Assembly: GCF_003634935.1 (NCBI RefSeq)
Contig: NZ_RBXO01000001.1
Coordinates: forward strand, 3,001,501 to 3,065,500
DNA: 64,000 nt
Reading direction: 5' to 3'
From: Saccharothrix australiensis
Lineage (GTDB): Bacteria; Actinomycetota; Actinomycetes; Mycobacteriales; Pseudonocardiaceae
Shown here: positions 18,401 through 38,507 of the stretch, piece by piece
Numbering within the stretch: the stretch's first letter is position 1
How the letters are laid out: each line of letters starts with the position of its first letter
Program-made: the position numbers and the translations under genes
Notes under the pieces: model-generated
Databases searched by the model: none
The model's input: only the letters and a program-made list of their open reading frames with translations
Told to the model about the DNA's origin: nothing

Positions 18401-19751
18401 CGGCGAGCGCGGCCTCGGTCCGCGCGGACACCACCAGCGGCACCTCGGCGGCCGGTGGCGGGCTCGGCTCGCCTTCCGGCGGCGGCGCGGCCAGCACCAC
18501 GTGCACGTTGGCGCCGCCGAACCCGAAGGAGTTCACCCCGACCAGCCCGCCGTCCAGCGGCCGGGCCTCCTCGACCGGCGCGAGGCGCAGGCCGTCGAAG
18601 TCGATCCCGGTGCTGCGCGGGCTCGCGTGCGGCGTCGGCGGGACGAGGCGGTGCCGCAGCACCAGGATCGCCTTGCACAGCCCCGCCATGCCGGACGCGG
18701 GTTCGAGGTGCCCGAGGTTGCCCTTGACCGAGCCGATGGGCAGCGGCGCGCCGGTGCGGCGGACGCCGAGCGCGGCCCCGATCGCCCTGGCCTCGATCGG
18801 GTCGCCGACCGGCGTGCCGGTGCCGTGCGCCTCCAGGTAGGCCAGGTCGTCCGGGTCGAGCCCGAAGCGGGCGTACACCTCGCGCAGCAGCGCCTCCTGG
18901 GTGTCGCCGCCGGGCAGCACCAGCCCGGCGGTGCGCCCGTCGCTGTTCGTCCCCGATCCCACGACCACGGCGTGCACCCGGTCGCCGTCGGCCACCGCGT
19001 CGGCCAGGCGCTTGAGCACCAGCACGCCGCCGCCCTCCGCCCGCGCGTAGCCGTCGGCCTCGGCGGAGAACGGGCGGCAGCGCCCGGTCGCCGACAGGAA
19101 GCCCGCCTTGGCGAAGCCGACGAAGGTCAGCGGGCTGAGCAGGACGTTGACCCCGGCCGCCAGCGCGACCCGGCCGCCGCCGTGCCGGAGGTGCTCGCAC
19201 GCCAGGTGCACCGCGTTCAGCGACGACGCGCACGCGGTGTCGACCTTCAGGCTGGGCCCGTGCACGTCGAGGTGGTAGGACAGGCGGTTCGCCGTGTTGC
19301 ACAACGCCGCGCCGGAGTTGGTGTACGGGCCGATGTCCGTCGGGGTCGGGATGTTCTGCCCGACGTAGTCCATGGCCGACACGCCGACGAACACGGCGGT
19401 GTCGGTGCCCGCCAACGCCCGCGGGTCGACGCCCGCGTCGTCGAGCGCCTCGACGCCCAGCTCCAGCAGCAGCCGCTGCTGGGGGTCGATGCCGGCCGCC
19501 TCGCGCGGGCTGATCCCGAAGTGCTCGGCGTCGAACCCGCTCAGGTCGTCGAGGTAGCCGCCCGCGAAGGTGTAGGACTTGCCCGGCCGCACCTGGTTGG
19601 CGTCCCAGTACCGCTGCGTGTCGAACCGGTCCTCGGGAGGGTCGCCCACCACGTCCCGGCCCTCGACCAGGAGTGGCCACAGGTCGTCCAGGCCGGTCAC
19701 CCCACCGGGCAACCGGCACGCCACACCCACGATCGCGATCTCGTTCGACAT
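12495..19751 (-). CDS. Single-module highly reducing type I polyketide synthase, KS-AT-DH-MT-ER-KR-ACP
   Basis: A 2418-residue multidomain synthase. KS: residues 3-420 with C174 in DTACASS and H309/H348. AT: 510-810, GHSVGE with S603 and a YAFHSAAM motif at 703-710. DH: 890-1150, HxxxGxxxxP at H900 and DxxxQ at D1065/Q1069. C-methyltransferase: 1310-1530, VLEVGGGTG at 1357-1365. ER: 1730-2045, GAAGGVG at 1868-1874. KR: 2065-2245 with S2200, Y2213 and N2217. ACP: 2335-2410, S2372 in GVDSL. All active sites look intact. There is no loading module and no thioesterase. One fully reducing module with an intact methyltransferase implies iterative use to make a methyl-branched saturated or partly unsaturated chain. 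The order is that of fungal highly reducing synthases. AT specificity is unsettled. ATG 19751 starts the KS directly. Confidence 0.93.
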   Translation of the reverse strand: MSNEIAIVGVACRLPGGVTGLDDLWPLLVEGRDVVGDPPEDRFDTQRYWDANQVRPGKSYTFAGGYLDDLSGFDAEHFGISPREAAGIDPQQRLLLELGVEALDDAGVDPRALAGTDTAVFVGVSAMDYVGQNIPTPTDIGPYTNSGAALCNTANRLSYHLDVHGPSLKVDTACASSLNAVHLACEHLRHGGGRVALAAGVNVLLSPLTFVGFAKAGFLSATGRCRPFSAEADGYARAEGGGVLVLKRLADAVADGDRVHAVVVGSGTNSDGRTAGLVLPGGDTQEALLREVYARFGLDPDDLAYLEAHGTGTPVGDPIEARAIGAALGVRRTGAPLPIGSVKGNLGHLEPASGMAGLCKAILVLRHRLVPPTPHASPRSTGIDFDGLRLAPVEEARPLDGGLVGVNSFGFGGANVHVVLAAPPPEGEPSPPPAAEVPLVVSARTEAALAEAVSRMRERLVDCPDFHDVAYTSCRRRAWHDHRRVVLAASAEQARERLALPVPPQRGTARGRVAFAFSGHGAQWHGMAVDLLDAEPVFAKAVAEVDAALQPRVGWRVADELRAERSRLHDTEVVQPVLFAVQAGIAAVLADRGLRPAAVYGHSVGEIAAAFVAGVYDVDQAVALVVARSRAQGRTAGAGTMAVVNLDPEAVGQLLDRFAGRVEVAGINSARDVTLAGPREDLRELVALLAERDVFARLLDLDYAFHSAAMDPLREPLVESLAGLAPRAASVGFVSAVTGAPIAGEQLDARYWWRNVREPVRFAAATDHLVAAGYDTIVEIGPRPVLQTYLKRAAGEGVLAVLATLTRHEPGPRALRTAVESALAAGAPPHAERYFTRPGRVVGLPAYPWQRERFWLGDKHAWGGQTGPADHVLLGDRAAVSDPTWQSTVDPARLPWLAGHRAGGTPIMPAAGYLEMGWAAGRLALDGPVEVCELHITKPLAAPDDEAVLPRMQVSLSEEDGVFRVATSTGGNAAWRTHARGRVRRRVGAAPPPLDLAALRAGFRARGEHVDRSAFYAESKRIGLDYGPDFLVVTQAWVDGMAVLADYDCAHLDFTGFHAHPAWTDAAPQAAILLGRVLAERSTGEDSYLPVAIGAARLWGAPATTGSVHFRCRSLSDTWARADIVLTDTDGVVLLELLDCRFVRVPAPGQRTVRRQVTELRAAPRGRAPVTAGLPVAADPPDAVDVRLDEKYPEIRRRRLAATAAFTARAFSDILGGAEVFFTDDLSAAGVRPEFTRLLDVLVDVLVEHGALEWLGEFQGRPRWRLRPAAEEPFGELVADFPEHTLDLTLFGRCGLHLAELLRGERDALDVLFPTHASDTLAHYYDLLPSLRPFNEAAARVVRAIAEAWPADRPLRVLEVGGGTGALTAALLPVLPPDRTRYVFSDVGEFFLAPAAARFAAYDFVEYRVLDLNAPDVEPGSFDVVVAGNALHTAKDVRAALAGLAGALDDHGHLVFVEAHDPRVLALPFGLLPGFWSMTDVELRPDSPLLPTGRWREVVAEQGFTAARTVLEHGMCSLTTATRAPRPVPLSEPAPDAPAGRVVVVAEDETEAGFAADLVAALTGFGVDAARGTGAPAEWLGGTSTDVVLVLADTGPDVVAATTGRFELIRALGVASGELPGAARAGLWLVSRPAGVNPAPDAAVDPAAAAAWGVSRTIAAEFGTLEVRRISAPRGVAAHRLAREVLDPGGEDEVVLTASGRFVPRLRDLPPALTDAGTPFRLVARNAGPSYRLSWVETELPVPGPGEVLIEVRGAGINYRDALLAVGLLPAWVVGSGMAGTRLGGECAGVVRAVGPGVTRFRAGDLVAGFVAGSFASHVVADENFIATITNGFDLVTAVTMSVAPVSAYYGLCHLARLAPGEVVLVHGAAGGVGLAALQCARAVGATVIATAGTEEKRDFLRLLGVPHVFDSRSLSFAADVLAATGGEGVDVVLNSLGGEFITRSLELLRFGGRFVELGKRDLYGDRNVSLRPFRNNISYFVVDIDQLGKHRRAAIADAYDELMEQARAGTYHALPHRVFPAARIAEAFRSIQHSRHIGKLLVTFDRRPPVERARPGAFRPDPAGTYLVTGGAGGFGAETARWLADRGARRLALVNRRGGAAPEAAATVADLTARGVEVSVHAADVTDEAAMRAVVASIDASGAPLRGVVHAAMVLDDAMAVDLTPDRFQAVLAPKAAGAAVLDRVTDGRELDLFLMFSSAGAVFGNAGQAAYTAGNLFLEALARARRARGLAGQAIAWGALDEVGYVARTEGAAKTVTRAGLALLPLRRVREALDDLVGGPEVVLVWSHDGQFLRRLYPHLTTPRLGELTGGDLDADDEHDELVEKLRTAPLEEAIALTADAMVKTLSEILHVAPERIDRSKPLDQLGVDSLMGAELVGKMRRRLGREIPIMRVIASGGLDDLARSLVTHFKSEDEK

Positions 19752-20215
19752 GACCGGTGATCGTTCAACACGGGACGACCCCGGTCGGCGCAGACACGGT
19801 GGCGCCTGCCGGACATCAACCCATCGGGTGATTTGGTGGTGTGCCGGCGTGATTCTCGGGCAACGGGGATCCAGACGCGTGCCGAGCGGTCGTGACGTCG
19901 GGCCGAGGAACAAGGGGAGGTCACGCTCCGTCGAGCCGGGCCGTCATCACGTCCACGTCGCGGAGGGCGATCCGGATACCGGGGATCGGTGTGGATGTCG
20001 TCCACCGTTCGAGCGACTCGGTGATCCTCCGGGTGGCGTCGGTGCAGCGGTCGCGCGCGATGGTGACAGGTCGACGACCGTGCCGCGGAAGGCGGGGTGA
20101 GGGAGGAGCCCGCCGCGCGGGAGTTCGGCTTTCGGCCCAACGTGATGTGCTCCATCGGAGCGCCACGACGTCGAACCGATCTCCGAGCGCCCCGGTGATC
20201 GGTAGCGTCCCGGCC
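19752..20215. other. Intergenic region with possible gene relic
   Basis: A 464-base gap between the PKS and a divergent lipoprotein gene; the PKS promoter must lie here. The part nearest the PKS start (19752-19920) shows no gene. From about 19921 to 20145 the minus strand has protein-like sequence in two frames, listed separately. Confidence 0.5.
19921..20145 (-). pseudogene. Possible frameshifted coding relic, unknown protein
   Basis: On the minus strand one frame reads VGPKAELPRGGLLPHPAFRG and TVVDLSP. After a frame change, an adjacent frame reads ARDRCTDATRRITESLERW and ends IRIALRDVDVMTARLDGA before TGA at 19921. Both parts have natural composition and G/C-ending codons. This suggests the C-terminal end of a gene with one frameshift. 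I do not recognise the family, and chance reading frames in GC-rich DNA remain possible. Confidence 0.22.
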
Positions 20216-22533: not shown

Positions 22534-23928
22534 TCACGTGGCCGGGCGCGCGTCGACGATCTTCGCCAGCTTGCGGACGGCCGCGCGGAGGACTTCCGGG
22601 GGTTGCACGAACGGCAGGCGGAGGTGCCGGTTGTCCCGCCCCTCCACGTCGAACGCCTTGCCGCTCAGCACGGCGAGCCCGCGCCGCCGCCCGGCCGCCA
22701 CGACCTCGTCGGCCACCGGCTCCGGCAGCCCCGCCCACAGCGACACGCCGCCGTCCGGCACGTCGAACGTCCAGTCGGGCAGCTCCCGGCGCAGCTCCTC
22801 GACCAGCACGTCCCGCCGCTCGCGCAGGGTGCGCACCCGGTCGGCGGCGATCACGTCGCGCCGCTCCAGCAGCCAGGCGGCCTGGAGCTGGACGTCCACG
22901 GAGGTGCCCAGGTCGAGCATGCCCTTCAGCTCCGCGAGCGCCTCGACCAGCGAGTGCGGCGCGCGGACCCAGCCGAGCCGCATGCCCGCCCAGCACAGCT
23001 TGCTCATCGAGCCGATCGACAGCACGTTGCCCTCCGGCGCCCGCGCGGCGACGGTGGCCGGCGGCGGGCCGTCCAGCCGCAGGTCGATCAGCGCCAGGTC
23101 CTCGACCACGAGCGTGGCCGCCCGCTTGGCCGCGCGGGCCAGCTCCCCGGCGCGCGCTTCCGGCAGGCACCAGCCGGACGGATTCCGGTAGGCGGGTGTC
23201 ACGAAACCCGCCGAACATTGTTCGACCTGCTCCCACGATTGTTCGGTGGAGGGTAGCGCCCGCAGCCGGAGACGGTGCCAGCGTTGCGTCGAAAGCAGCA
23301 TCGGACAGGTCGGGTTCTCCACCGCGACCATTGCGCGCGGGGGTAGCGAAGCGCACGCCAGGAGCAGTCCCTGGGTGGCTCCGGAAGTGACGATGATCTG
23401 GTCGGGGGAGGTGGGCACGTGATGTTCGGCGAACCATTCGGCGATGCGCGAGCGCAGCTGATCTATGCCTGTCCGGGTGTATCCGTGATTGTCCAGGTGT
23501 GGCTTGATGAAACGACACGTTGCCGTTTTGGACCGCGCCACGAGCGGATGCGCGGGCAGGCTCGCGACCTGGAGGTCGAGCGCCGGTTCGGAAAGCGCCG
23601 GGTAATGTCGCGGGAAAGTGCGCGTCGGCGTCCGGCGCGGTGGTCGCGCGGACGTGCACCAGGTGCCGCTGCCCTGCTGGCTGGCCACCAGCCCGGCGGC
23701 CCGCAGCGCGTCGTAGGTGGCCTCGACGGTGTGCCTGCTCAGCGCGAGCGCGCTGGCCAGGGACCTGGCCGGGGGCAGGTAGTCGCTGTGCTGGATGGTG
23801 CCGTTGTCGATGATCCGGCTGATCCGGTCCGCGAGTTGCCCGTACAGCGGCAAGTCCGGTGTCGACCAGTCGCCCAATTCGGCGACGAGTGCGCGGGCGG
23901 ACCAGCGGCGGGCTCCTGAACCGCTCAT
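22534..23928 (-). CDS. MocR-type regulator: GntR HTH fused to a fold-type I aminotransferase-like domain
   Basis: A 464-residue chimera. Residues 22-92 form a GntR-type winged helix (LYGQLADRISRIID, then LPPARSLASALALSRHTVEA with the recognition helix). Residues about 115-460 form an aminotransferase-like domain with NPTCPML, TPAYRNPSG and SMSKLCWAGMRLGW, in which the lysine is the PLP-binding residue. MocR proteins bind PLP or its amino-acid adduct and control adjacent, usually divergent, genes. Here the divergent gene is the ABC exporter at the left edge of the peptide cluster, so it is the best candidate for the cluster's pathway regulator. ATG 23928 has GGAGAG upstream. Confidence 0.85.
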   Translation of the reverse strand: MSGSGARRWSARALVAELGDWSTPDLPLYGQLADRISRIIDNGTIQHSDYLPPARSLASALALSRHTVEATYDALRAAGLVASQQGSGTWCTSARPPRRTPTRTFPRHYPALSEPALDLQVASLPAHPLVARSKTATCRFIKPHLDNHGYTRTGIDQLRSRIAEWFAEHHVPTSPDQIIVTSGATQGLLLACASLPPRAMVAVENPTCPMLLSTQRWHRLRLRALPSTEQSWEQVEQCSAGFVTPAYRNPSGWCLPEARAGELARAAKRAATLVVEDLALIDLRLDGPPPATVAARAPEGNVLSIGSMSKLCWAGMRLGWVRAPHSLVEALAELKGMLDLGTSVDVQLQAAWLLERRDVIAADRVRTLRERRDVLVEELRRELPDWTFDVPDGGVSLWAGLPEPVADEVVAAGRRRGLAVLSGKAFDVEGRDNRHLRLPFVQPPEVLRAAVRKLAKIVDARPAT

Positions 23929-24222
23929 GTCCAGCTCTCCGGGGAGCCGGATGAATCGATCCCTTCACGGTTCCGGGGAGAGTGGGCTGATTTTTCCCGA
24001 GAACGCGGGTGAGTGGCGTGTCGCCGCACTGCCCCCCGTGGGCGCGGCACCCGGTTTGAGCACACTGGTGATCCTCCCCTGAACCCCCTGGTGTGTTACC
24101 TGGAGGCGACTGTAGCATGGGCGGGTGATATGTCAACGCTGCTTTCGAGTCGAAGCGGGCGAAAAGATCGTCTTTAGCGGGCGTGATTTGTGCGGGGAAA
24201 ATATCGCGGTGGTGCCGGTCCC
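23929..24222. promoter_or_regulatory. Divergent promoter region between MocR regulator and ABC exporter
   Basis: A 294-base AT-enriched gap. TGTAGCAT around 24111-24118 contains a TANNNT -10 hexamer (TAGCAT) for rightward transcription. The block ACTGGTGATC ... CCTGGTGTGT at 24064-24103 contains two direct CTGGTG repeats, the kind of direct repeat that MocR proteins bind. A 15-codon ORF at 24130-24177 is probably chance. Both the -10 and the operator are inferred by eye. Confidence 0.4.
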
Positions 24223-26076
24223 ATGATCGGATCAACATTTACGAGTGTCGTCAACGCGTTCCGGTTGACCTGGTCGGCCGCTCCCGGCCGGGTGTTGTCG
24301 TCCGGTCTCCTCACGGCCGTCGGCTCCGCGTTGCCCGCGCTCACGCTGTGGTTCACCCGCGACCTGGTGGACGCGATCACCGGCCACTCCGGCGCACCGG
24401 CCGTGGTGCCCGCCGCGGCGCTGGCGCTGGCCCTGGCGGCGGGTTTCGCGGTGAACGGGTTGAGCGCGGCGTTGCGCGAGTCGCTGGGCGTGCGAGTCGT
24501 GGTGGAGGCCGAGCAGCGGTTCATCCGGGCCGTCGGCGCCGCGCCGCTGACCCGGTTCGAGGAGTCGGCCTGGCACGACCGCCTGGCCAGGGCCAAGGAC
24601 GACCTGGACTGGCGTCCCGTGCAGATCGCCGAGAGCGGCATCCAGGTGGTGGGCGGGCTCGCCGGGCTGGCGAGCGTCTTCGCGCTGGTGGTCGGCACGG
24701 ACTCGCTGCTGGTGCTGCTGATCTGTCTCGCCGTGCTGCCGCTCGTGGTGGCGCGCCGCCTGACCAGCGCGCGGCTGATCTCCAACTGGCGCGAGACGAC
24801 CGGGCTCTCCCGCCGCGGCGAGTACTTCCGCGATGCGCTGACCAGCCGGGACCTGGCCGCGGAGGTGCGCGCGTACGACCTGGCCGGCCGCTTCGCCGAC
24901 GAGCACCGCGCGGTCGGCGTCGAACTGGTCCGGCGCACCGACCGCATCGCCCGCGGCGCCGCCCTGCGCATCCTGCTGACCGTGCCGCTCGCCGCCGTCC
25001 CCCTGGTGCTGGGGTTCGTGCTGATCGCCGATCGCGGCGCGGCCGGGCGGATCACGCCCGGCGAGATCGCCGTGCTGGCCGGCGCGGTGACGGCGCTGAC
25101 CCTGGAGCTGTCGACGTTCGTGGACAGCCTGCTGGAACTCGTCGAGCACGGCATGTTCATGGAGGACTACTTCGCCCTGGTCGGCCGCGCACGGCCGGCG
25201 GACGCGGGCAAGGGCAAGGGCAAGGGCACGGTCGCGGGCAAGGGCAAGGTCGCGGTCGCGGTCGCGGGCAAGGCGGTCGGCAAGGTCGCGGTGGGCCCGC
25301 GGGCGCCCGGACTCGCGCCCGGTCCGCCGGCCGTCCGGTTCGAGGACGTCTGGTTCACCTACCCCGGCTCGCGGCGACCCGCGCTGCGCGGGGTGGACCT
25401 GACCGTGCCCGCCGGCCGGGTGCTCGGCCTGGTCGGCGACAACGGCGCGGGCAAGAGCACGCTGGTCAAGCTGCTGCTGGGCCTGTACACCCCGACCAGG
25501 GGCCGGGTGCTGGTCAACGGCGTCGACCTCAGGGAGCTGGACCCCGCCGAGGTGCGGGCCCGGATGGGCGTGGTGTTCCAGCAGTACCCCCGCTACGCGC
25601 TGACCGTGCGCGAGGCCGTCGCCGTCGGCCGCTGCCACCGGCCCGCCACCGACGACGCGATCCTGGCCGCGCTGCGCGCCGGGCAGGCCCACGAGCTGGT
25701 CGAGCGGTTGCCGGACGGGCTGGACACGGTGCTGGGCAAGGAGTTCCAGGGTGGCGTCGACCTCTCCGGCGGGCAGTGGCAGCGCCTGACCCTCGCGCGC
25801 CTGATGTACCGGGAGCCGGACCTGTGGATACTGGACGAGCCCACCGCGGCGCTGGACCCGCTCGCCGAGGCGGCGGTGTTCGCCGAGTGGCGGCGCAAGC
25901 TGGCCGGCCGGACCGGCGTGCTGATCTCGCACCGGTTCTCCAACACCCGCACGGCGGACCTGATCGCCGTGGTGGAGGAGGGGCGGGTGGTCGAGCTGGG
26001 CACGCACGACGAGCTGGTGGCGGCGGGCGACCGCTACGCGCGCTTCTTCCGCACCCAGGCCGAGGAGTACCGCTGA
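24223..26076 (+). CDS. ABC exporter half-transporter (permease fused to ATPase)
   Basis: A 617-residue protein with six predicted membrane segments in residues 10-320 and a C-terminal ATPase at 366-617. Walker A is GDNGAGKST (405-413), the Q-loop is FQQYPRYAL, the signature is LSGGQ (514-518), Walker B is [11 protein letters not shown], and the switch histidine is ISHRF. Half-transporters of this type act as homodimers and export peptides or lipids. Residues 327-365 form an unusual low-complexity Gly/Lys/Ala/Val linker encoded by short tandem repeats. There is no peptidase-C39 domain, so leader removal must be done elsewhere. Its position beside YcaO, TfuA and a peptide gene suggests it exports the mature peptide. 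ATG 24223 is preferred; GTG 24190 is possible. Confidence 0.88.
25207..25293 (+). repeat. Low-complexity tandem repeat within the ABC exporter gene
   Basis: Units of GGCAAG and GTCGCG are repeated many times, encoding [19 protein letters not shown] and more between membrane and ATPase domains. Such hexamer arrays can vary in copy number by slippage without changing frame. Confidence 0.8.
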
Positions 26077-26096
26077 CGCCGCCGGCGGGCGTCGGG

Positions 26097-27041
26097 TCAC
26101 CACGCGTCGGCCTGCCCGCCGGTCGGACCGGACCCGCGAGCGGTGGCCCGCGCGGCCCGCGGGCGCGACCAGGCGGTGAGGGCCGTGCCGAGCGCGGGGA
26201 GCAGCGCCGGGCGCGACAGCGGGGACAGCAGCAGTTCCGGCGCGCAGCACAGCACCGCCGCGTAACGCAGGGCGGCCCGCCCCGCGCGCTCGCCGGCCAG
26301 CGCCTGACCGGCCGCGGTGACGTGCTCCCAGGCCCGCAGCAACCGGTGGGCCCGGCCGCCCGCGCCCGCCGCGAACCGACGCCGGAAGTCGCGCTCGGCC
26401 GCCAGCGCCGCCGAGGAGGGGCGGCGGTCGGTGTGGTCGCGGTAGAGCAGGACGTCGTCCGGCAGCACCAGGACCCGGCCGTGCGGCACGAGCCGCAGCC
26501 ACAGCTCGTCGTCCTCGCCGAGCCGCACGCCCTCGTCCCAGCCGCCCACCCGGCGCAGGGCGCCCACGCGGAACAGCGTCCGGCCCGCGCCGGTGATCCA
26601 CAGCCCGGCGAGCACGTCCGGCCACACCGCGCGCAGCAGCCGGCGGCGTGGCCGCACGCAGTTCAGCCAGCGCTCCGCGCCGTCGAAGGCCAGCTCCACC
26701 TCGGTGGCGGCGACCGCCGCCGGTTGCCCGGCCAGCGCCGTGGCCAGCCGTCGGAGCGCCTGCGGCAGCAGCAGGTCGTCGTCGTCCAGGAACAGCACGA
26801 ACTCGCCGCGCGCCAGCGCCAACCCGGCGTTGCGCGCCACGCCGAACCCGCCGCGCTCCGGCAGCCGGACCACGCGGACCCGGTCGTCGGCCCGCGCACC
26901 GAGCCACTCCGGGGTGTCGTCGGAGCCGGCGTCGTCGACGACCACGACCTCCAGCTCGGGCCAGTCCTGGGCCAGCACGCTCGCCAGCGACTCCGCCAGC
27001 AGCTCGCGCCGGTCGCGGGTGGTGATCACCACGCTGGTCAT
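26097..27041 (-). CDS. Family 2 glycosyltransferase
   Basis: A 314-residue GT-A fold enzyme. The N-terminus SVVITTRDRRELLAESLAS and VVVVDDAGSDDT are the nucleotide-sugar binding opening of family 2. The DDDD at residues 86-89 supplies the metal-binding DxD, and LGEDDELWLRL matches the ED catalytic-base region. There is no membrane segment until weak hydrophobic stretches near 260-285. Its ATG overlaps the TGA of the TfuA-like gene in the sequence ATGA, so translation is coupled to that operon. It may glycosylate the cluster's peptide. Acting on cell-surface polymers is the alternative. Confidence 0.82.
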   Translation of the reverse strand: MTSVVITTRDRRELLAESLASVLAQDWPELEVVVVDDAGSDDTPEWLGARADDRVRVVRLPERGGFGVARNAGLALARGEFVLFLDDDDLLLPQALRRLATALAGQPAAVAATEVELAFDGAERWLNCVRPRRRLLRAVWPDVLAGLWITGAGRTLFRVGALRRVGGWDEGVRLGEDDELWLRLVPHGRVLVLPDDVLLYRDHTDRRPSSAALAAERDFRRRFAAGAGGRAHRLLRAWEHVTAAGQALAGERAGRAALRYAAVLCCAPELLLSPLSRPALLPALGTALTAWSRPRAARATARGSGPTGGQADAW

Positions 27042-27802
27042 CCGGTGGCGCACGGCGCCGTCCCCTCGGTGTCGACCAGCAGCTGCCACTGGTGGGTGTG
27101 GGCGAACCGGAACGGCGCGGCGGCACGGGTTCCCCGCCGCCGCCCGGAGGCCAGCAGCCGCAGCGCGAGCACCGCGTCGTCCCTCTTGCGCTCGACCCGC
27201 CCGCCGGGCAGCCAGGCCCGCAACGACTCCCGCTCGGCGGGGTCCGGCATCCCGGCCAGCAGCGCCGGGTAGTCCCGCTCGGCGTAGAAGGTCCGGGCCG
27301 CGCGCGCCAGCAGCTCGCCGGCGGCGGCCTCCCGGATCACGCCGGCGGTCACCGCGGCCCGCGCGGTCGCCCTGATGTCCACCAGCGCGACCGAGAGCGG
27401 CCGGTAGCCGCCGAGCGCGGGCTGGTGCAGGACGGCCACCTCGTCATCGGCCACCAGGCGTCCGGCGCGGAAGTCGGCGAAGATCGTCCCGATGCCGACC
27501 ATGCCGAACGCCGCGGTCTCCGCGGCGCGCAACGCGCCCATGCTCGCCGCGCCGAACACCGCGACACCGTTCGCCAACGCCCAGAGGATCTCCTTGTGCC
27601 ACACCGAGGGCACCCGCTCGTAGCAGCCGTCCACGAGCAGGATCACACGTGCCCCGCCGGACACCGCGCGGTAGACGTCCCCGATCACCGCGGGACCGCG
27701 CAGGTCCGCTCCGGGCAGGAGCCCGGCCGCGCGCCGGTGGGGCAGCGTCGGTCCGAGGAAGACCACCGGCGCGCGGCCGTCGGCCCGGTCAGTAGAGGTC
27801 AT
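27038..27802 (-). CDS. tfuA: TfuA-like protein, partner of YcaO in thioamide/azoline formation
   Basis: A 254-residue protein with the full TfuA signature: GPTLPHRRA near the N-terminus, DGCYERVPSVWHKEILWAL at 58-76, then GVAVFGAASMGALRAAE at 79-95, and the DDEVAVLH motif near 120. TfuA proteins work with YcaO enzymes; in thioviridamide-like clusters and in methanogen McrA modification the pair installs thioamides, with TfuA thought to help deliver sulfur. The start overlaps the end of the YcaO gene by 14 bases and its stop overlaps the glycosyltransferase start, so it is in the middle of an operon. Confidence 0.92.
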   Translation of the reverse strand: MTSTDRADGRAPVVFLGPTLPHRRAAGLLPGADLRGPAVIGDVYRAVSGGARVILLVDGCYERVPSVWHKEILWALANGVAVFGAASMGALRAAETAAFGMVGIGTIFADFRAGRLVADDEVAVLHQPALGGYRPLSVALVDIRATARAAVTAGVIREAAAGELLARAARTFYAERDYPALLAGMPDPAERESLRAWLPGGRVERKRDDAVLALRLLASGRRRGTRAAAPFRFAHTHQWQLLVDTEGTAPCATG

Positions 27803-28955
27803 GCGCCCACCTCAGCCCTTCCGCGACCACCTTGACCACCGGGATGCCGATGGACGGCTTGCCGAGGTCCACCACCGCCACCCGGCCGCCACCGGCGCGT
27901 CGAGCCGCCGCCAGCAGGAACCGGACCTCCTCGGCCTTGGTCGCCTCGGCGGGCACGGGGGAGACCGGCAAGCCCGGCGACGCGGGCTCGGCCAGCTCCT
28001 CCGCCACGGCGGAGCGCTGCGCCGGGTCGTAGTACCACTCGTAGCGGGAGCGCGGGATCGAGTCCCGCGCGCCGGCGATCACGGTGGCCCGCACCTGCGC
28101 GGCCTCGGTCAGCGCGCGGGTCACCGCCTGTTCCGGCCGGGGGTGGCACGCCGTGCCCAGCACCTGGGGCAGCGGGTGCAGCGAGCCCTGGTCCTCCTCG
28201 ACCAGCAGGCAGTCGACCACCGGCAGCCCGACGGCGGCGCTGAGGTCCCGCAGCACCGGGACGACCCCCGCCGCGGCGAAGCGGTCCAGCAGCCCGCGGT
28301 TGACCGGGTCGGTGACCGCCGCGAGGTCGATGCGGTGGCTCGCCTCGGACTCGTCGCGCTCCCAGCAGGCGACCGCGTGGCGCTCCAGCAGTTCGCACAG
28401 CGCGTGGTGGGTGGCCCAGGTCAGGTCCGGCCCGGCGGCCAACCCGTTCGTGCCGCCCTGGCAGGCCGCCGGCGGCAGGCCCGGCTGGACGCGGTCGTCG
28501 CACTCCACCGCGTCCCTGGGCACCCAGCACGGCTCGCCGTCGGCGAGGTCCGTGCCCAGCACCCACGGGATCCGCCGGTCGTGCGCGGCGGGGTCGGGGT
28601 CGGGCAGCCGGTCGACGTCCAGCGCGCGGGCACCTTCGGCCACAGTGGACGGTCGGGCCCAGCGGGTGGGCAGCGCGACCCGCTCGGCGTGCCACAGCTC
28701 GACCGCCTCCATGATCGCCGAGATCCGCGCCTGCTCCGGGGTCGCTCCCTTGCCCTGCGAGACGGCGAGGCTCCAGGAGTTCGGCCGGATCGCGCACCAC
28801 ACCGGGATGCCGATGCGGTCGAGCCCGGTGACGTCGGCGACCCTGGTGATGCCGCAACGGCCCAGGACCGGGTCGAGCCGGGCGAGGGTCCCGGCGGGGT
28901 CGGCGTCGTACGGCCCGCGAGGCGGCTGCCACGGTCGCGTCGCGGTGGTGCTCAC
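27789..28955 (-). CDS. YcaO-domain enzyme (TfuA-associated)
   Basis: A 388-residue YcaO protein. The ATP-binding glutamates are seen in QARISAIMEAVELWHAE (E83, E86), HALCELLERHAVACWERD, and ALTEAAQVRATVIAGARD, which is the RxxTExxQxR motif. WSLAVSQGKGATPEQA is typical of the TfuA-partnered group. YcaO enzymes activate a backbone amide oxygen with ATP. With TfuA the usual outcome is a thioamide; with a cyclodehydratase E1-like partner it is an azoline. No E1-like or dehydrogenase gene is present here, which favours thioamidation. The GTG start at 28955 follows the serine hydrolase-GNAT gene by 105 bases. Confidence 0.93.
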   Translation of the reverse strand: MSTTATRPWQPPRGPYDADPAGTLARLDPVLGRCGITRVADVTGLDRIGIPVWCAIRPNSWSLAVSQGKGATPEQARISAIMEAVELWHAERVALPTRWARPSTVAEGARALDVDRLPDPDPAAHDRRIPWVLGTDLADGEPCWVPRDAVECDDRVQPGLPPAACQGGTNGLAAGPDLTWATHHALCELLERHAVACWERDESEASHRIDLAAVTDPVNRGLLDRFAAAGVVPVLRDLSAAVGLPVVDCLLVEEDQGSLHPLPQVLGTACHPRPEQAVTRALTEAAQVRATVIAGARDSIPRSRYEWYYDPAQRSAVAEELAEPASPGLPVSPVPAEATKAEEVRFLLAAARRAGGGRVAVVDLGKPSIGIPVVKVVAEGLRWAHDLY

Positions 28956-29060
28956 GGCGGCACCGCCCGTCCACCGCCCGGACGGCCTCCGCCGGCGGAG
29001 GCCGCCGGCACGACGGCCAACCGGCACGCGTCCGCGGCGGCGCGGGCGGCACCGGGCGGC

Positions 29061-31001
29061 TCACGCATCGTCGTACCGCGAGTAGATCATCAGGCTCGGC
29101 TCCCACCCGAGTTCCTTGAACAGCGCCGCCGCCTCCGCGTCGTCGGGGGAGACCTCGATGCGGTAGTGGTCGGCGCCACCGGCCCGGAGGTGCTCCAGCG
29201 CCGCGGACACCAGTGCCCGGCCGATGCCGCGCCGCCGCCGGTCGGGCCGGACGAACAGCTCTTCGACCACACCCACGTAGCCGGGGTAGGTGGAGTGCCC
29301 GAGCAGGTGCGCGGTGACGAAGCCGTCGGGCGGGCGGTCCGGACCGGTCCCGCTGATCAGGCAGGTGGACAACGGGTCCTCGACGGCCGCCCTCAGGTGC
29401 TCGGTGACCGCGGCGCGCTCCTCGTCGCCCAGCCGCTCGCCGGCGGCGCGCAGCACGTTGAGGTCCCACAGTTCGAGCACCGCGGGCAGGTCGTCCTCGC
29501 CCGCCGGGTGGATCGTCCGAGTGGCGGTCATGCTTCCCCCTTTCTCCAGGAGCGCGCGGGCGATCCCGCGCAACGCGCGGTGCGCGTGCCACGGCAGTGC
29601 GGTCGGCAGCCGCCTGCGCGGCAACAGCACCATGCCGTCGATGCCCAGGCCGGTCACCCGACCGGCCTCGTCCGTGACGAACGCCGTGCGGCGGACCCGC
29701 GCGCCGGTTCCCTCCAGCGCGTAGACCAAGGGTCCGTCCGGCAGCAGCCGGACCCGTTGCCCGGTCAGCGGTGTGCTCAGCCACAACGAGTCGTCGGCGA
29801 GCGACACCACGGCGTCCGGTGGCCTGGGCTCCAGCGGGTGGCCCGCTGGGTGGCGGTAGTGCCCGCACAGCCGCCGCGGGTCCGAGGGCCGGGGCCCGTG
29901 CCGCCGTGCCGCGCCGGGCCGTGCTCCATCGGGCTGTGCTCCAACGAACCGTTCTCCAGTGGGCCGTGCTTCAGCAGGCCGTGCTGCGGTGGGCCGTGCG
30001 TCTTCGAGCGGGGCGTCTTCGAGCAGGGCGGTCAGCACGCGGGGACCGAGGTCTTCCCCGAGCCGCCACGTGGGACCGTTGGCCAGCAACACGAACGCCA
30101 GCCCGGCGGCCGGCACCAGGAACATGGCGGCCGAGAAGCCGCCGTCGAAACCGTCGTGCCAGAACACCTCGTGCCCGGCGATGTCGAGCCGGACGAGGAA
30201 CGGGCACTGCCGGGGCAGCGAGTCGTGCACCGCGAACGTGGCGGCGTCGAGGTGTTGGACCAGCGGGCGGTCCAGCAGCCGCCGGGGCTCCAGCAGCGCG
30301 CCGGCCAGCCGCGCCGCGTCGCCCGCCGTCGACACCAGGCCGAGCACGTCCGGCAGGTCGGGTTCGCTCGGCGGCACCGGCCGCCAGCGGCCGTCCTCCC
30401 GCTCCAGGGGGGTGGCCAGGTCGGCCGCGGCCGCGCCGAACGTCGTGGCGCGCAGTTCCAGCGGCCCCGTGATCGTGCGCGCGACGTGCTGCTGGAAGGG
30501 CTCGCCGACGCGGTCGGCGACCACGCGCGCCAGCAGCGCGAAACCGATGTTGCTGTACTCCCAGCGCTCACCCGGCTCGCGGCGGGGCGTCAGCGTGGCG
30601 GGCAGCCGCGCGGGGAGCGGCACGGCGTCGGCCAGCGCCTGCCGCCACGTGAGCACGTCGCCCAGCCCCGAGGTGTTGCACAGCAGGTCGGCGACCGTGA
30701 CGGGCCGGCGGCCGGCGCCGCGGCGCACACGCAGGGTCACCGGTTCGCCCAGCGCCAGCTCGCCCCGTTCCACCAGGCGCAGCACCGCGACCATGACGAC
30801 CTGCTTGGTCAGTGACGCGAGCCGGAACCGGGTCGTCCGGGTCACCGGCCGGTCGGGCGCGCGAGCGGAGCCCGCGCAGAGCACCTCCGGCCGCCTGCCG
30901 GGCCCGGCGATCCCCAGCGCGACGCCGGGCGCCTCCCGCGCGGCCAGGAAGTCCGCCAGGAGCGCCGCCAGGGCCGTGCTCCCGACCGGGCTAGGTGGCA
31001 T
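29061..31001 (-). CDS. Fusion of a beta-lactamase-fold serine hydrolase with a GNAT acetyltransferase
   Basis: One uninterrupted frame of 646 codons. Residues 10-340 are a serine beta-lactamase/penicillin-binding-protein fold: SLTK at 63-66 supplies the nucleophile and lysine, YSN at 149-151 is the second motif, and WHDGFDGGF may provide the third. Residues about 330-375 form a Pro/Ala/Arg-rich linker made of five-residue repeats. Residues 491-646 form a GNAT domain with the acetyl-CoA motif RPDRRRRGIGRAL. An internal ATG at 29531 is preceded by GGAG and a GGGGG run, so a free acetyltransferase may also be made. The start overlaps the asparagine-synthetase-like gene by 11 bases. The hydrolase could remove a leader or close an amide; the GNAT could acetylate the product. 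Confidence 0.85.
   Translation of the reverse strand: MPPSPVGSTALAALLADFLAAREAPGVALGIAGPGRRPEVLCAGSARAPDRPVTRTTRFRLASLTKQVVMVAVLRLVERGELALGEPVTLRVRRGAGRRPVTVADLLCNTSGLGDVLTWRQALADAVPLPARLPATLTPRREPGERWEYSNIGFALLARVVADRVGEPFQQHVARTITGPLELRATTFGAAAADLATPLEREDGRWRPVPPSEPDLPDVLGLVSTAGDAARLAGALLEPRRLLDRPLVQHLDAATFAVHDSLPRQCPFLVRLDIAGHEVFWHDGFDGGFSAAMFLVPAAGLAFVLLANGPTWRLGEDLGPRVLTALLEDAPLEDARPTAARPAEARPTGERFVGAQPDGARPGAARRHGPRPSDPRRLCGHYRHPAGHPLEPRPPDAVVSLADDSLWLSTPLTGQRVRLLPDGPLVYALEGTGARVRRTAFVTDEAGRVTGLGIDGMVLLPRRRLPTALPWHAHRALRGIARALLEKGGSMTATRTIHPAGEDDLPAVLELWDLNVLRAAGERLGDEERAAVTEHLRAAVEDPLSTCLISGTGPDRPPDGFVTAHLLGHSTYPGYVGVVEELFVRPDRRRRGIGRALVSAALEHLRAGGADHYRIEVSPDDAEAAALFKELGWEPSLMIYSRYDDA
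29916..30020. repeat. Seven degenerate 15-bp tandem repeats inside the hydrolase-GNAT gene
   Basis: Seven successive 15-base units resembling GGGCCGTGCTCCATC can be aligned without gaps. They encode the repeated 'ARPxx'-like five-residue linker on the minus strand. The unit is a multiple of three, so changes in copy number keep the frame. Confidence 0.8.
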
Positions 31002-32403
31002 GCGCGCCCCGTTCCTCGGCGCCCCTGATCCAGTCCTCCACCGCCTGCAACCGGCCGAGCACGGCGACGTCGCGCACCTCGGGCACCCGGTCCGGGTCGA
31101 CGAGGCCCAGTTCGACGCAGCGGTCCAGGCCGCCCAGCCGGGCGTCCTCGTGCCGGGCCAGCGCCTTGCCGTAGAGCTGCTTCACCTTGGGCAGCGCGGC
31201 ACGCGCGGACGGCGGGTACAGCGAGACCACCGGGCCCTTGCGGCGGTGGTACTCGGTCCCCAGCCCCGCGTGGTACCGGCCGCCGCAGTCCAGGCCCAGG
31301 CCGTAGCGGACGAAGGCCGGGTCCAGGAACGGGGCCCGCTCGGGCACGCCGCCGCTGCTGAAGTTCCCCATGTCGTCGTCGATCGGGAAGCAGGCGTCCC
31401 AGGCGTCGGCCCGGTACCAGGCGCGGTGGTGCGCGGTGTGGTTGGCGAGCTGCTCCCGCAACCAGTTCGCGGACCAGCTCTCCACCGCCCGCCGGTGGCC
31501 CTCGGCGAGCGCGGGGGTCGGTGTCACCTCGCACAGCTCCGGCCACAGGCACGCCCAGTACAGCCGGCTGGACACCGCGCGGGGCAGCAGCCCGGCCACC
31601 GCGGACAGCGCTTCCACGCCCAGCGCGGACCACCGCCCGGCGTCGTAGGCGTCGCGCAGGTAGCGCAGCAGCGCCCGCGGTCGGCGGACCAGCCTCGTCC
31701 CGAGGAACCGCGGCGCGCCGAACAGCTCGTCGCTGCCGTCACCGGTGAGCACGACGTCGCAGCCCAGTTCACCGGCGAGGGCGTTGATCCGGCCGAGGAT
31801 GTGCGGTATGCCCCCGATCCGGGGACCGGTCGGGCTCCACGGCAGCGGTCCGGGCCGCGCCCAGCCCTCCATCTCCTCGCCGTCCAGCGAGTAGACCTCG
31901 CAGTCCACGCCGAGGTCGTCCAGCAGCCGCAGCGCCACCGTCGAGCTGCGCACGCCCGCGTCGTCGACCATGTCGATCACCAGCGCCACCGGCGTCGCGC
32001 CGGCGCCCGCGCACCGGCGCGCGGTGTAGTGGAGGACGGCGGTCGAGTCGAGCCCACCGGAGAACAGCACGGCGGGCCGCCGTGCGGGGCCGAGGCACCG
32101 GCCGACCGCCGCGTCGAACTCCTCGCGCAGCCGGTCCTCGTCCCAGGGCTGGTCCCCGATCGGCACGAACGGCCGCCGCAGGGACACGTCCGGCCACGGT
32201 GACACCGGGTGGAACTCGAACGAGATCGACGGCGTGGACAGGTACCGCGCCAACCGGTCGAGTGAGAACGCCCGGCCGACCACGGAATCGCCGGAGACCG
32301 GCGGGGAGTAGGTCGGGTACAGCGCCGACGATCCCGCACCCGGAGCCGCACCGGCATCGCTGCGGCTCCGGGTGGGGGAAGGCACCTGGCCAGATGCGGT
32401 CAT
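30991..32403 (-). CDS. Asparagine-synthetase-like ATP-dependent amide-forming enzyme lacking the glutaminase domain
   Basis: A 470-residue protein holding only the synthetase half of the asparagine synthetase family. The PP-loop is VLFSGGLDSTAV (S115-S120), and the second ATP motif is LTGDGSDELFGAPRF (221-229). The conserved PFLDPAFVRYGL and YGKALA segments near the C-terminus are present. The N-terminal class II glutaminase domain with its Cys2 nucleophile is absent, so ammonia from glutamine is not the substrate. Relatives built this way activate a carboxylate as the adenylate for an internal amine, as in beta-lactam synthetase and lasso-peptide macrocyclases. The ATG is one base after the stop of the 52-residue peptide gene, which points to the peptide as substrate. 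Confidence 0.88.
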   Translation of the reverse strand: MTASGQVPSPTRSRSDAGAAPGAGSSALYPTYSPPVSGDSVVGRAFSLDRLARYLSTPSISFEFHPVSPWPDVSLRRPFVPIGDQPWDEDRLREEFDAAVGRCLGPARRPAVLFSGGLDSTAVLHYTARRCAGAGATPVALVIDMVDDAGVRSSTVALRLLDDLGVDCEVYSLDGEEMEGWARPGPLPWSPTGPRIGGIPHILGRINALAGELGCDVVLTGDGSDELFGAPRFLGTRLVRRPRALLRYLRDAYDAGRWSALGVEALSAVAGLLPRAVSSRLYWACLWPELCEVTPTPALAEGHRRAVESWSANWLREQLANHTAHHRAWYRADAWDACFPIDDDMGNFSSGGVPERAPFLDPAFVRYGLGLDCGGRYHAGLGTEYHRRKGPVVSLYPPSARAALPKVKQLYGKALARHEDARLGGLDRCVELGLVDPDRVPEVRDVAVLGRLQAVEDWIRGAEERGAHAT

Positions 32404-32404
32404 G

Positions 32405-32563
32405 TCAGCGGCTGAGCGAGGTCAGCAGCGCGCGAACCCGGACGAACAGGGACTTGCCCTTCTCCTGCGCCGCCGGCGTCTCGAAGACGGCGGTGTAGCC
32501 GCCGCCGCCGCGAACGCCCCTGCGGTGGCCGCAGCCGTCGCGCGGCGTCGATTTCTTAGCCAT
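32405..32563 (-). CDS. Putative RiPP precursor peptide, 52 residues
   Basis: ATG at 32563 is preceded by AGGGAGG (32570-32576 on the complement) with a six-base spacer, among the best ribosome binding sites in the window. The ORF ends TGA, C, then ATG of the asparagine-synthetase-like gene. The peptide begins MAKKSTPRDGCGHRRG, has a GGGG tract at 19-22, one Cys (C11), acidic residues D9, E28 and E34, and a basic amphipathic end KSLFVRVRALLTSLSR. It matches no precursor I know. If the synthetase makes a lasso-type ring, cutting after T24-A25 gives a core from V26 with Glu at position 9, and cutting before G20 gives Glu at position 9 as well; both are speculation. It could instead be a small unrelated protein. 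Confidence 0.7.
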   Translation of the reverse strand: MAKKSTPRDGCGHRRGVRGGGGYTAVFETPAAQEKGKSLFVRVRALLTSLSR

Positions 32564-32565
32564 GA

Positions 32566-32832
32566 ACGCCCTCCCTGGTGATCAATGTCGTCGCTTGCGT
32601 CGGATAGCGACAGACCAGATATATCAGCGGGTCGAGGCGCTGCCACGGGCCAATCAGCGGGCCAATCGCGGAATGGTGGGGTCGGCCGGGACGGCGGCCG
32701 GCCGGTGCGTTCACGTTTTCGTGGTCCGGACCGGTGACGTGATCGCGCCTGCGGGCCACCGGTTTCCGGTGCCGTGGGCGTGTTGGCGCGTGGCGGGGGT
32801 TTCGCGGGCGGTGCACGGGGTAGGGCATTGGC
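32566..32832. promoter_or_regulatory. Divergent promoter region of the peptide operon
   Basis: A 267-base gap between the precursor gene (leftward) and a methyltransferase gene (rightward). The only AT-rich island is at 32605-32630 and contains the palindrome GATATATC (32618-32625). The leftward operon promoter probably lies there, about 45 bases before the precursor start. No confident -35/-10 pair is seen for either direction. Confidence 0.4.
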
Positions 32833-33705
32833 ATGTGCTCATCGGACGGACGGCACGGCCTGGCGCGTGGTAGCACGATCGCCGGGTTGGCCGGGCGGTT
32901 CGCCGAGCGCATGGCGGCGGTGCGGCCCCTGGTGGACGCGTCGTTCGTGCGGTCGGACTGGGCGCGGCGCAACGACGAGTTGGCACGCGACCTGCTGCCC
33001 GTGCCACCGGCGGATTTCCTGCGTCACCCGTCGATCGCCTTCCAGATGTTCGTCAACGAACGGCTTGTGCCGCACGAACTGCCGTACGTGCGGTCGCGGT
33101 TGACCGACGACCGCCTGCTCGCCGAACCGCCGGTCGGTGGGCCGCCGACGGTCCCGTTGCCGGACAGCGACGTCCGAACCTCGTCGAACACCGTGCACCA
33201 GCTGTTCCACCTGCTGCGCTACCAGGAGGCGACCGGGCGCCGGATCGACGCCGCCGCCACGGTCGTGGAATGGGGCGGTGGGTTCGGCGCGCTGATGCGC
33301 GTGCTCGTCGCACTGCACCGGGGCGAGCCGACCTGCGTCGTCTTCGACACCCCGGTGTTCAGCGCCGTGCAGTGGCTCTACCTGTCCGCGGTGCTCGGCG
33401 AGCAGCGCGTCGTGCTGCACGACACCGCGCCGGTGCGGCCGGTCGCGGGACGGGTGAACCTGGTGCCGATCGGACTGGTCGACGCGACGGACGTGGCGGC
33501 CGACCTGTTCATCTCGAACTGGGCGCTCAACGAGAGCACCCCGACGGCGAGGCAACACGTCGTGGACCGCCACTGGTTCGGCGCCGATTCGCTGTTGCTG
33601 GCGATGCACGCCGGTGACCCGTTCGCCGAAGTGGTGCTGGCGGCGGGGGCCCGAGCGGTGCCACTCGGTGATTTCCTGCCAGGGCAGCATTACCTGGTCG
33701 TCTGA
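32833..33705 (+). CDS. Putative sugar O-methyltransferase (NanM-like family)
   Basis: A 290-residue class I methyltransferase. The SAM-binding motif is VVEWGGGFGALMRVL (145-159), preceded by the characteristic SSNTVHQLFHLLRYQEATG segment found in the putative sugar O-methyltransferase family. SNWALNES near 233-240 is the region following the adenine-binding acidic loop. Together with the glycosyltransferase in the adjacent operon, this suggests a methylated sugar on the peptide product. That link is inference from proximity. ATG 32833 has a weak GGGG-TAGGG Shine-Dalgarno. Confidence 0.65.
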   Translation: MCSSDGRHGLARGSTIAGLAGRFAERMAAVRPLVDASFVRSDWARRNDELARDLLPVPPADFLRHPSIAFQMFVNERLVPHELPYVRSRLTDDRLLAEPPVGGPPTVPLPDSDVRTSSNTVHQLFHLLRYQEATGRRIDAAATVVEWGGGFGALMRVLVALHRGEPTCVVFDTPVFSAVQWLYLSAVLGEQRVVLHDTAPVRPVAGRVNLVPIGLVDATDVAADLFISNWALNESTPTARQHVVDRHWFGADSLLLAMHAGDPFAEVVLAAGARAVPLGDFLPGQHYLVV

Positions 33706-33832
33706 CGCTTTCCGGTTGTCCCGCTGAATGCGTTCAATTCGCCTCGAGCGGTTTGTGGCCGAGCGATCCGAGCGTGCGCGTCGGACCGGAAAACCGGTCG
33801 CCGACGCGTCGAGACGCGGTTATGGTCGTCGG

Positions 33833-34561
33833 GTGCCCGACGCGATCTTCGCCCACCCGCGCCTTGCCGCCATTTACGACGCCTTCGACGGGGAACGCGG
33901 TGATCTGACGGCTTACCTGGACATCGCCGACGAGTTGGGCGCGGATCGCGTGCTCGACGTCGGCTGCGGGACGGGGTCCTTGGCGATCCTGCTCGCCGAC
34001 AGCGGGCGCGAGGTCGTGGCGGTCGACCCGGCCGGTGCTTCGCTGGCGGTCGCGAGGTCGAAGGACCGGGCCGGCCGGATCACCTGGGTGCACGGCGAGG
34101 TCGCCGCGGTGCCGAGCCGCGATGTCGATCTGGCGGTGATGACCGGGAACGTGGCGCAGGTCTTCCTGACCGACCACGACTGGGCGCAAGCCCTGCGGGG
34201 CATCCGCGCCGCACTCCGCCCCGGCGGGCACCTCGTGTTCGAGACCAGGCGTCCGGAGCGCCGGGCGTGGGAGGAGTGGGCCGCCGATGAGGCTCGGCTC
34301 ACCCTCGACGTGCCGGGGACCGGACCGGTGGAGCAGCGTCGCGAGGTCACCGCCGTGGACCTCCCGTTCGTCTCCTTCCGACACACCTACCGGTTCCTGG
34401 CCGACGGCGCGGTCGTGACCTCGGACTCGACCCTCCGCTTCCGCGGACGCGCCGAGGTCGAAGCAAGCCTGACCGCGGCCGGCTACCGGGTGCGGGACGT
34501 GCGCGACGCACCGGACCGCCCCGGGCGGGAGTTCGTCTTCATCGCCCAGCGCACGACCTGA
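33833..34561 (+). CDS. Class I SAM-dependent methyltransferase
   Basis: A 242-residue methyltransferase with motif I RVLDVGCGTGSLAILLADSG (residues ~38-57), the acidic VVAVDPAGASLAVARSK strand, LRPGGHLVFETRRP as motif III, and the C-terminal beta hairpin. The first residues 'PDAIFAHPRLAAIYDAFDGE' are typical of small-molecule methyltransferases. GTG 33833 was chosen because the family starts there; the frame is open to 33728, but those 35 residues are Arg-rich. It may be a further tailoring enzyme of the peptide cluster or unrelated. Confidence 0.82.
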   Translation: MPDAIFAHPRLAAIYDAFDGERGDLTAYLDIADELGADRVLDVGCGTGSLAILLADSGREVVAVDPAGASLAVARSKDRAGRITWVHGEVAAVPSRDVDLAVMTGNVAQVFLTDHDWAQALRGIRAALRPGGHLVFETRRPERRAWEEWAADEARLTLDVPGTGPVEQRREVTAVDLPFVSFRHTYRFLADGAVVTSDSTLRFRGRAEVEASLTAAGYRVRDVRDAPDRPGREFVFIAQRTT

Positions 34562-38320: not shown

Positions 38321-38347
38321 CGGATCGCCTTGAGAGGTGGCGATCCG
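38321..38347. terminator. Hairpin terminator after the nucleotidyltransferase gene
   Basis: CGGATCGCC (38321-38329) and GGCGATCCG (38339-38347) form a perfect nine-base stem with a nine-base loop, starting six bases after the stop codon. Confidence 0.65.
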
Positions 38348-38507
38348 GGGGTCGGGACGTCGGATGGGAGTGCGAGGGCTGCCGCCGCACGGGGACCGTG
38401 AGGGCAGCCGTTCGTGTGAACCGCCGGCGAGGTCGGCGCGTCGGCCCGACCCGCGCGCTATCCCTGCTGCGCAAGGCGCACAGCGGCGCGAGGGAAGGCG
38501 ACGGGGT

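Follow-up and report, generated by a model that had tools for sequence, protein, structure and literature searches.

A 64,000-nucleotide stretch of the Saccharothrix australiensis genome (hereafter the window; positions 3001501-3065500 of contig NZ_RBXO01000001.1, in a genome of 7.86 Mb) contains an operon whose probable product is a triculamin/lariocidin-type lasso peptide, formed without a leader and bearing a backbone thioamide. The operon couples a 52-residue precursor and a lasso cyclase to a YcaO-TfuA pair. The family of precursor and cyclase is already known, and what sets the locus apart is YcaO-TfuA. That the operon product belongs to the lasso family is very likely, and we are nearly as confident that YcaO-TfuA acts on the 52-residue peptide; a thioamide is the likely product. 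An earlier note, made from the sequence alone, had proposed an unplaced class of ribosomally synthesized and post-translationally modified peptide (RiPP). Family placement of precursor and cyclase overturns that proposal, and an unplaced peptide class was accordingly ruled out. The features that carry our reading are listed here by window position.

32405-32563, minus strand: precursor peptide, 52 aa, from the list of open reading frames (ORFs) and the profile score
32507-32560, minus strand: predicted core AKKSTPRDGCGHRRGVRG, ring Ala1-Asp8 and tail 9-18
32537-32539, minus strand: codon of Asp8 (ORF residue 9), the expected isopeptide acceptor
32408-32506, minus strand: putative C-terminal follower, for removal, placed by alignment with the triculamin precursor
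30991-32403, minus strand: Asn-synthase-like protein, triculamin-type lasso cyclase (Pfam Asn_synthase, E 3e-15; PP-loop SGGLDS)
27789-29027, minus strand: YcaO (Pfam YcaO, 7e-68; possible GTG start at 28955)
27038-27802, minus strand: TfuA (Pfam TfuA, 1e-44)

After its Met, the 52-residue ORF reads AKKSTPRD-GCGHRRGVRG followed by 33 further residues, and an AGGGAGG ribosome-binding site lies ahead of the ATG. Judged by sequence, it belongs among the precursors of triculamin/lariocidin-type lasso peptides, with its core at the N-terminus and a C-terminal follower. The C-terminal boundary of the core is a provisional one, placed by alignment with triculamin, given as cyc(SKKSKPGD)GIRGKGVRG in PMC13192320, and with lariocidin, for which two sources give the core as SKKSKPGDGKFGRGVKRG (PMC12427821) and an isopeptide bond from Ser1 to Asp8 (PMC11451635). 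The family's leaderless start pattern, M-[SA]-x-K-S-x-P-G-D-G, recurs here as AKKSTPRDG, with Arg replacing Gly at position 7. Lasso peptides carry an Asp or Glu at position 7-9 from the N-terminus, and Met removal leaves Asp8 there. No in-frame ATG, GTG or TTG lies upstream of the precursor ATG in the window sequence, and the window precursor is therefore leaderless. On a profile built from the precursors of 17 relatives, with identical sequences entered once, its 18 post-Met residues reach 21.0 bits. Among 3,634 scored window starts, those open for 18 codons, the next best reaches -2.2 bits; against a background of 15,198 starts from fetched TfuA loci, some overlapping, the highest score is 9.4 bits. 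Profile members themselves score 37-59 bits, so the window peptide is a divergent family member. Triculamin's own gene was recovered in Streptomyces triculaminicus (locus L047) with a core identical to the published one; at another locus, L053, no start codon stands directly ahead of the core.

The Asn-synthase-like enzyme is, by homology, a glutaminase-free lasso cyclase of the triculamin family. Pfam found no glutaminase domain in it. The intact PP-loop (SGGLDS) and other motifs expected of an Asn-synthetase-homologous lasso cyclase are present, and the enzyme is 32-39% identical to those of 18 close loci, with catalytic motifs kept. Homology to the triculamin cyclase extends over the full length (33% identity), although the two fall on opposite sides of a split with support of 95/92 in the cyclase tree. 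On the window's side are seven first-cyclase (C1) enzymes and on the other 15 others; adding two second-cyclase (C2) rows gave 97/95 (unrooted). A smaller earlier tree grouped the window with the Actinomadura madurae homologues C1-C3 at 95/92, and at only 75/60 without C2 and C3; with six further genomes of the A. madurae family included, the value was 95/92. Left out of the cyclase trees were L045 and L053 (both partial), L050 (whose frame stops early), the contig-edge loci L035 and L036, the fragment L037/L056, and the split Pseudonocardia plasmid copies (L006, L034). In a fold comparison (VIA-align), the window cyclase fell with the asparagine- and beta-lactam-synthetase fold. The 12 best rows all belong to the asparagine-synthetase superfamily, no lasso cyclase is among the matches listed, and the best match is TsnB9, a hydroxyamidotransferase.

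The sulfur chemistry is suggested by YcaO and TfuA. Thioamidated RiPPs are recognised by an adjacent YcaO and TfuA of thioamidation type, and such a pair is found here, with nearest models and structures of that type though below NCBIfam cut-offs. YcaO scores 199 bits on the NCBIfam model for McrA-glycine thioamidation versus 92 on SagD, and its nearest solved structure is MJ1094 (6pe3), at 98 bits versus 47 for TruD-/SagD-type cyclodehydratases; for TfuA the nearest solved structure is 6xp8. A YcaO tree of 28 rows, omitting duplicates and matches spanning <330 residues, separates the window and the seven related proteins as a clade from 20 other TfuA-linked YcaOs (98/91). The earlier note had seen no E1-like cyclodehydratase partner, and none appears among the ten proteins scanned with Pfam; simple cyclodehydration of the thiazole/oxazole-modified microcin kind was rejected on this ground. 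Characterised YcaO-TfuA products named in the available text of PMC13174530 are thioviridamide-like peptides, thiovarsolins, thioamidated thiopeptides, chimeric lanthipeptides and std, with no lasso peptide in that text. No thioamidated lasso peptide was found in the literature searched, a search that did not take in the main triculamin genome-mining paper, which may already mention YcaO.

Precursors encoded beside YcaO and TfuA share a motif that others lack. P-[RK]-D-x-C-G is present in 8/8 YcaO-linked precursors and in 0/19 from loci whose fetched stretch shows no YcaO. All eight have Arg or Lys at position 7 and all 19 have Gly there, and Cys10-Gly11 likewise divides the two sets (8/8 with YcaO-TfuA, 0/19 without), one of the 19 having Cys10 alone. 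The 19, which include two pairs with identical cores, were found with patterns that required Asp8-Gly9 and left positions 7 and 10-11 free in at least one pattern. Agreement at Asp8 (8/8 and 19/19) and at Gly9 is thus not evidence, because the search patterns required both positions. A thioamide sited near Cys10-Gly11 is a tentative placement, to which we give slightly less than even confidence.

The gene set recurs in other actinobacteria. In seven genomes from the family of A. madurae, the precursor stands a few bases before the cyclase, and an S9 peptidase follows (Pfam was run on three of these). TfuA lies within ~12 kb of the cyclase in 7/7, with YcaO beside it (for genome G911, in stretch L158). 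In the cyclase and YcaO trees alike, these seven group together with support, and the window stands outside that group. The earlier note's suggestion that peptide, synthetase-like enzyme and YcaO-TfuA form one system is upheld by this recurrence and by the congruent trees, and its question whether the set is conserved elsewhere is answered by the precursor, cyclase, YcaO and TfuA shared across these genomes. Neither of the outcomes it had named as refuting, homologous YcaO-TfuA loci lacking the peptide and the synthetase, or another conserved peptide elsewhere as substrate, was seen within the clade.

A single-sequence scan of genome contigs for relatives gave no match; a profile scan gave 36 loci, 18 of them close, and YcaO and TfuA were present in one of the 36, that of A. 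madurae (L052). Cyclase searches matched 1/25 genomes of the same genus (the window's own only) and 18/390 of the source organism's family, nine of which, counting the window's genome, reach E 1.8e-15 or better, with two weak matches besides the own genome in a phylum sample of 396. Among 65 genomes of A. madurae's genus, A. madurae alone matched strongly and one other weakly. In its family, a two-row cyclase profile matched 68/298 genomes, 7 strongly (E 2.7e-126 or better) and 61 weakly (E 8.5e-12 or worse), and yielded six further full-length cyclases beyond A. madurae. TfuA matches occur in 61/390 genomes of the source organism's family (58 over the cut-off). None of nine TfuA loci from nine other family genomes (10-20 kb each) has this cyclase, and TfuA is present in 0/8 family genomes with the strongest cyclase homologues. 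A plasmid search gave no match with the precursor and, with the cyclase, two Pseudonocardia plasmids. The large plasmids NZ_CP012182 and NZ_CP012185 (L006, L034), of Pseudonocardia from the ant Apterostigma dentigerum, carry a precursor of triculamin type ahead of a cyclase that is divided between two ORFs. Pairs of precursor and cyclase of triculamin type were also seen in a Chloroflexota metagenome-assembled genome (L038) and in Sinorhizobium psoraleae (L048).

The remaining operon genes and their neighbours are as follows.

29061-31001, minus strand: S12 (beta-lactamase-fold) hydrolase-GNAT fusion (Pfam Beta-lactamase, 1e-51; GNAT, 3e-12)
26097-27089, minus strand: GT2 glycosyltransferase (Pfam GT2, 2e-30; possible start at 27041)
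24190-26076, plus strand: ABC exporter (Pfam ABC)
22534-23928, minus strand: MocR-type regulator with GntR and aminotransferase domains, nearest YczR below cut-off
32833-33705, plus strand: weak sugar O-methyltransferase-like protein, divergent, membership doubtful
33728-34561, plus strand: class I methyltransferase (Pfam methyltransferase), divergent, membership doubtful

The six-gene leftward operon spans 26097-32563, with the exporter and MocR genes to its left and two divergent genes to its right. The order, places and strands first described for it all match the ORF positions, and Pfam/NCBIfam confirm the gene types. From the peptide to GT2, intergenic spacings are +1, -11, +33, -14 and -52 bases with the longest ORFs; if YcaO starts at 28955 and GT2 at 27041 instead, the last three change to +105, -14 and -4. 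The description of both right-hand genes as methyltransferases stands for 33728-34561; the 32833-33705 protein is without a Pfam match, and its single NCBIfam match, to a putative sugar O-methyltransferase, reaches 34.5 bits against a cut-off of 44. In the stretches of 20-21 kb fetched for each of the seven related loci, nothing matches GT2, the MocR gene or either gene on the right at E 1e-4. All four were rejected as core parts, though genes further out could be missed. Glycosylation of the product, also part of the initial proposal, is unsupported: GT2 lies in the operon and is unmatched in those loci. Further left, window 12495-19913 encodes a single 2472-aa type I polyketide synthase (KS-AT-DH-MT-ER-KR-ACP), adjoined by an aldehyde dehydrogenase gene at 10131-12440; to the right of the cluster, 38337-41414 and 41538-44483 encode two tandem large BTAD/NB-ARC/TPR (SARP-like) regulators.

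The hydrolase-GNAT fusion and the exporter resemble parts of known triculamin-type clusters. The S12 domain has SxxK, YxN and HxG motifs, and its nearest solved structure is a D-amino acid amidase, followed by IS11 and a carboxylesterase; the GNAT domain has RRRGIG. Both a GNAT and an ABC exporter, which mark triculamin-family clusters, are thus present (the GNAT fused to the S12 hydrolase, the exporter at 24190-26076). A GNAT stands beside the cyclase in 7 non-YcaO loci with scanned neighbours, the triculamin locus included, and one was detected in 3/7 of the related YcaO-linked loci. An exporter is found in 6/7 of the latter, the stretches from genome G911 giving just a weaker ABC match (~31%); the window exporter is 39% identical to that of the A. 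madurae locus. According to PMC13352647, Lys acetylation serves self-resistance in triculamin and lariocidin. Of the acetylated peptide proposed at the outset, the acetyltransferase domain is there, and by the same source acetylation is more likely a matter of self-resistance. In the A. madurae cluster, a phytanoyl-CoA dioxygenase-like gene adjoins the GNAT and exporter genes (L121:14487-15887; Pfam), and a similar protein, judged by eye, occupies the same place in genome G969 (L159:5967-6965), making further tailoring in the A. madurae branch possible.

As the earlier note had stated, no lasso B-protein is evident. Lasso clusters classically encode a recognition element (B1) and a leader peptidase (B2), but a whole-genome search gave no PqqD or Transglut_core3 match inside the window, and across the 8 YcaO-linked genomes none comes closer than 100 kb to the cyclase. 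Matches do occur elsewhere in the window's genome (Transglut_core3 at 3.70 and 3.85 Mb; PqqD at 1.10, 1.36, 3.69 and 3.85 Mb), including two PqqD and Transglut_core3 pairs of the classical B1/B2 type at 3694922-3695551 and 3854624-3855231. Searched by tblastn with the triculamin producer's B1 and B2, which divergent B proteins could escape, the window, the 18 close loci and others showed these proteins in L047 only. There, at L047:3210-6045, a classical set of a 618-aa cyclase-like ORF, B1 and B2 lies ~4 kb upstream of the triculamin precursor.

We propose the following pathway. The 52-residue precursor would be translated and its initiator Met removed, exposing Ala1. YcaO, by homology of enzyme type, would then activate a backbone amide with ATP, and TfuA would supply sulfide to give the thioamide, most likely within [RK]7-D8-x9-C10-G11 at the ring-tail junction if covariation marks the site. 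The cyclase would adenylate Asp8 and join it to the Ala1 amine around a pre-folded tail, closing an 8-residue ring; in recognition, the C-terminal follower may replace the leader and the RiPP recognition element (RRE). The serine hydrolase encoded next to the cyclase, of type S12 in the window and S9 in the seven relatives, could cut off the follower, a role suggested by its position only. Following triculamin and lariocidin, the GNAT may acetylate a Lys for producer protection and the ABC transporter may export the cationic product, whose likely target, by analogy, would be the bacterial ribosome.

Other products of the same genes have to be weighed against a thioamidated lasso peptide. The cyclase might make an unthreaded head-to-side-chain macrolactam, the product being a thioamidated macrocycle and no lasso: a genome cannot reveal threading, and the window's Gly-rich tail is without bulky plugs. 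We consider this unlikely, since triculamin and lariocidin, both described as lasso peptides, have close core sequences and tails that are just as small. YcaO cyclodehydratases act on Cys, and with Cys10-Gly11 in all 8 YcaO-linked precursors, YcaO (with TfuA) could instead make a thiazoline at Cys10, or another sulfur modification, on the same peptide. This too has a low probability, given a YcaO nearest the McrA-glycine thioamidation type, ahead of SagD/TruD on both comparisons (199 vs 92 and 98 vs 47 bits), the presence of TfuA and the lack of an E1-like partner among the ten scanned proteins. A pair that serves some other substrate and merely shares the operon would fit the observation that, among the 61/390 TfuA-bearing family genomes, only the window's own strongly matches this cyclase, a weak match in genome G206 lying 0.7 Mb from its TfuA. 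It is made improbable by the tight operon spacing, by the 8 loci from two lineages that have this combination, by cyclase and YcaO trees that divide the window from the other seven alike, and by the motif that co-located precursors share and others lack. Most improbable of all is an amidotransferase that would amidate Asp8 or the C-terminus without forming a ring, as the best fold match, TsnB9, might suggest; the enzyme has no glutaminase domain and is homologous over its full length to the triculamin cyclase, and a shared fold proves no function.

Several observations weigh against a thioamidated lasso peptide of the triculamin type itself. The best NCBIfam matches of the pair, both to McrA-glycine thioamidation, are below cut-off (YcaO 199/365 bits, TfuA 176/235). 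No relative exceeds 39% identity to the window cyclase, and in a smaller tree that included outgroups, the cyclases of the window and of A. madurae grouped with five outgroup rows at weak support (51/68). Five of the 8 YcaO-linked precursors are nearly identical and the window versus the rest is one split, so the motif represents at most a few independent events, and it may only mark descent. The window GNAT is fused to an S12 hydrolase, while relatives have S9; the fetched stretch of 4/7 related loci holds no GNAT, though it may end too early, and none was among the few scanned neighbours of the non-YcaO loci L032, L034, L038 and L044. Some relatives, triculamin included, have a frame open to an earlier start, which makes their leaderlessness less certain than the window's. 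The classical B1/B2 pair lies ~4 kb from the triculamin precursor, and the lariocidin cluster contains B1B2, as stated in PMC11451635; the lack of B1/B2, usual among the triculamin-type loci examined, is therefore no family law. Threading and thioamidation, finally, are both inferred from sequence.

Several known systems come close to the locus. Like triculamin (L047), the window has a precursor able to start at the core, a C-terminal follower, an 8-residue ring with Pro6-x-Asp8, a basic Gly-rich tail, a glutaminase-free cyclase, a GNAT and an ABC exporter. The triculamin locus differs in being without YcaO/TfuA in the fetched 10 kb either side, in having Gly7 and no Cys10-Gly11, in a GNAT that is not hydrolase-fused, and in the nearby upstream set of classical cyclase, B1 and B2. 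Lariocidin (Paenibacillus sp. M2, lrc) likewise has an 18-residue core and an Asp8 ring, with Lys2, Lys3, Ser4, Pro6 and Gly9 in common. Also described for it are a GNAT for self-resistance and a ribosome target, the latter extended to the window peptide by analogy. In contrast, the lrc cluster has B1B2 and a clostripain-like peptidase, as PMC11451635 reports, and 'YcaO' occurs nowhere in the main text of that paper. An earlier report placed an albusnodin-like lasso precursor near TfuA in Nonomuraea solani; that cluster has another precursor family and no acetyltransferase, and no thioamidated lasso is described in the portion of the source available (PMC8120280). Thioamidated RiPPs made by YcaO-TfuA likewise have the pair beside the precursor, but the accessible text of PMC13174530 has no lasso among them.

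The A. madurae-type loci (L052, L142-L147) encode two or three cyclase homologues, arranged as C1, S9 peptidase, C2 and, in most, C3. Where the core has Asp4, as in six loci, C2 retains SGGLDS or SGGMDS; in A. madurae, with Ser4 in its core, the C2 loop is lost. With a single loss behind it, a link between the C2 loop and Asp4 is no more than a lead. C3 is without the ATP loop in the five loci aligned; for L144 and L147 the C3 query picked up C2. There is about an even chance, in our view, that these loci represent a distinct class of ribosome-targeting lasso antibiotics, spread over at least two actinobacterial lineages, in which a triculamin-type knot bears its backbone thioamide at a P-[RK]-D-x-C-G hinge and synthesis does without leader, RRE or B proteins, with an Actinomadura-type branch of up to three cyclase homologues in which a C2 loop found only with Asp4 hints at a second side-chain bond.

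A series of one to three cyclase paralogues lets the number of bonds per cyclase be asked, and the leaderless, apparently follower-guided route leaves YcaO-TfuA to locate its substrate with no RRE encoded nearby in the cluster. If a lasso peptide does carry a thioamide, two strong routes to proteolysis resistance and shape retention would be joined. Since members of the triculamin family are antibacterial and lariocidin has a ribosomal site of action of its own, natural thioamide analogues, if that is what these loci make, would reveal the effect of backbone sulfur on a current antibiotic lead.

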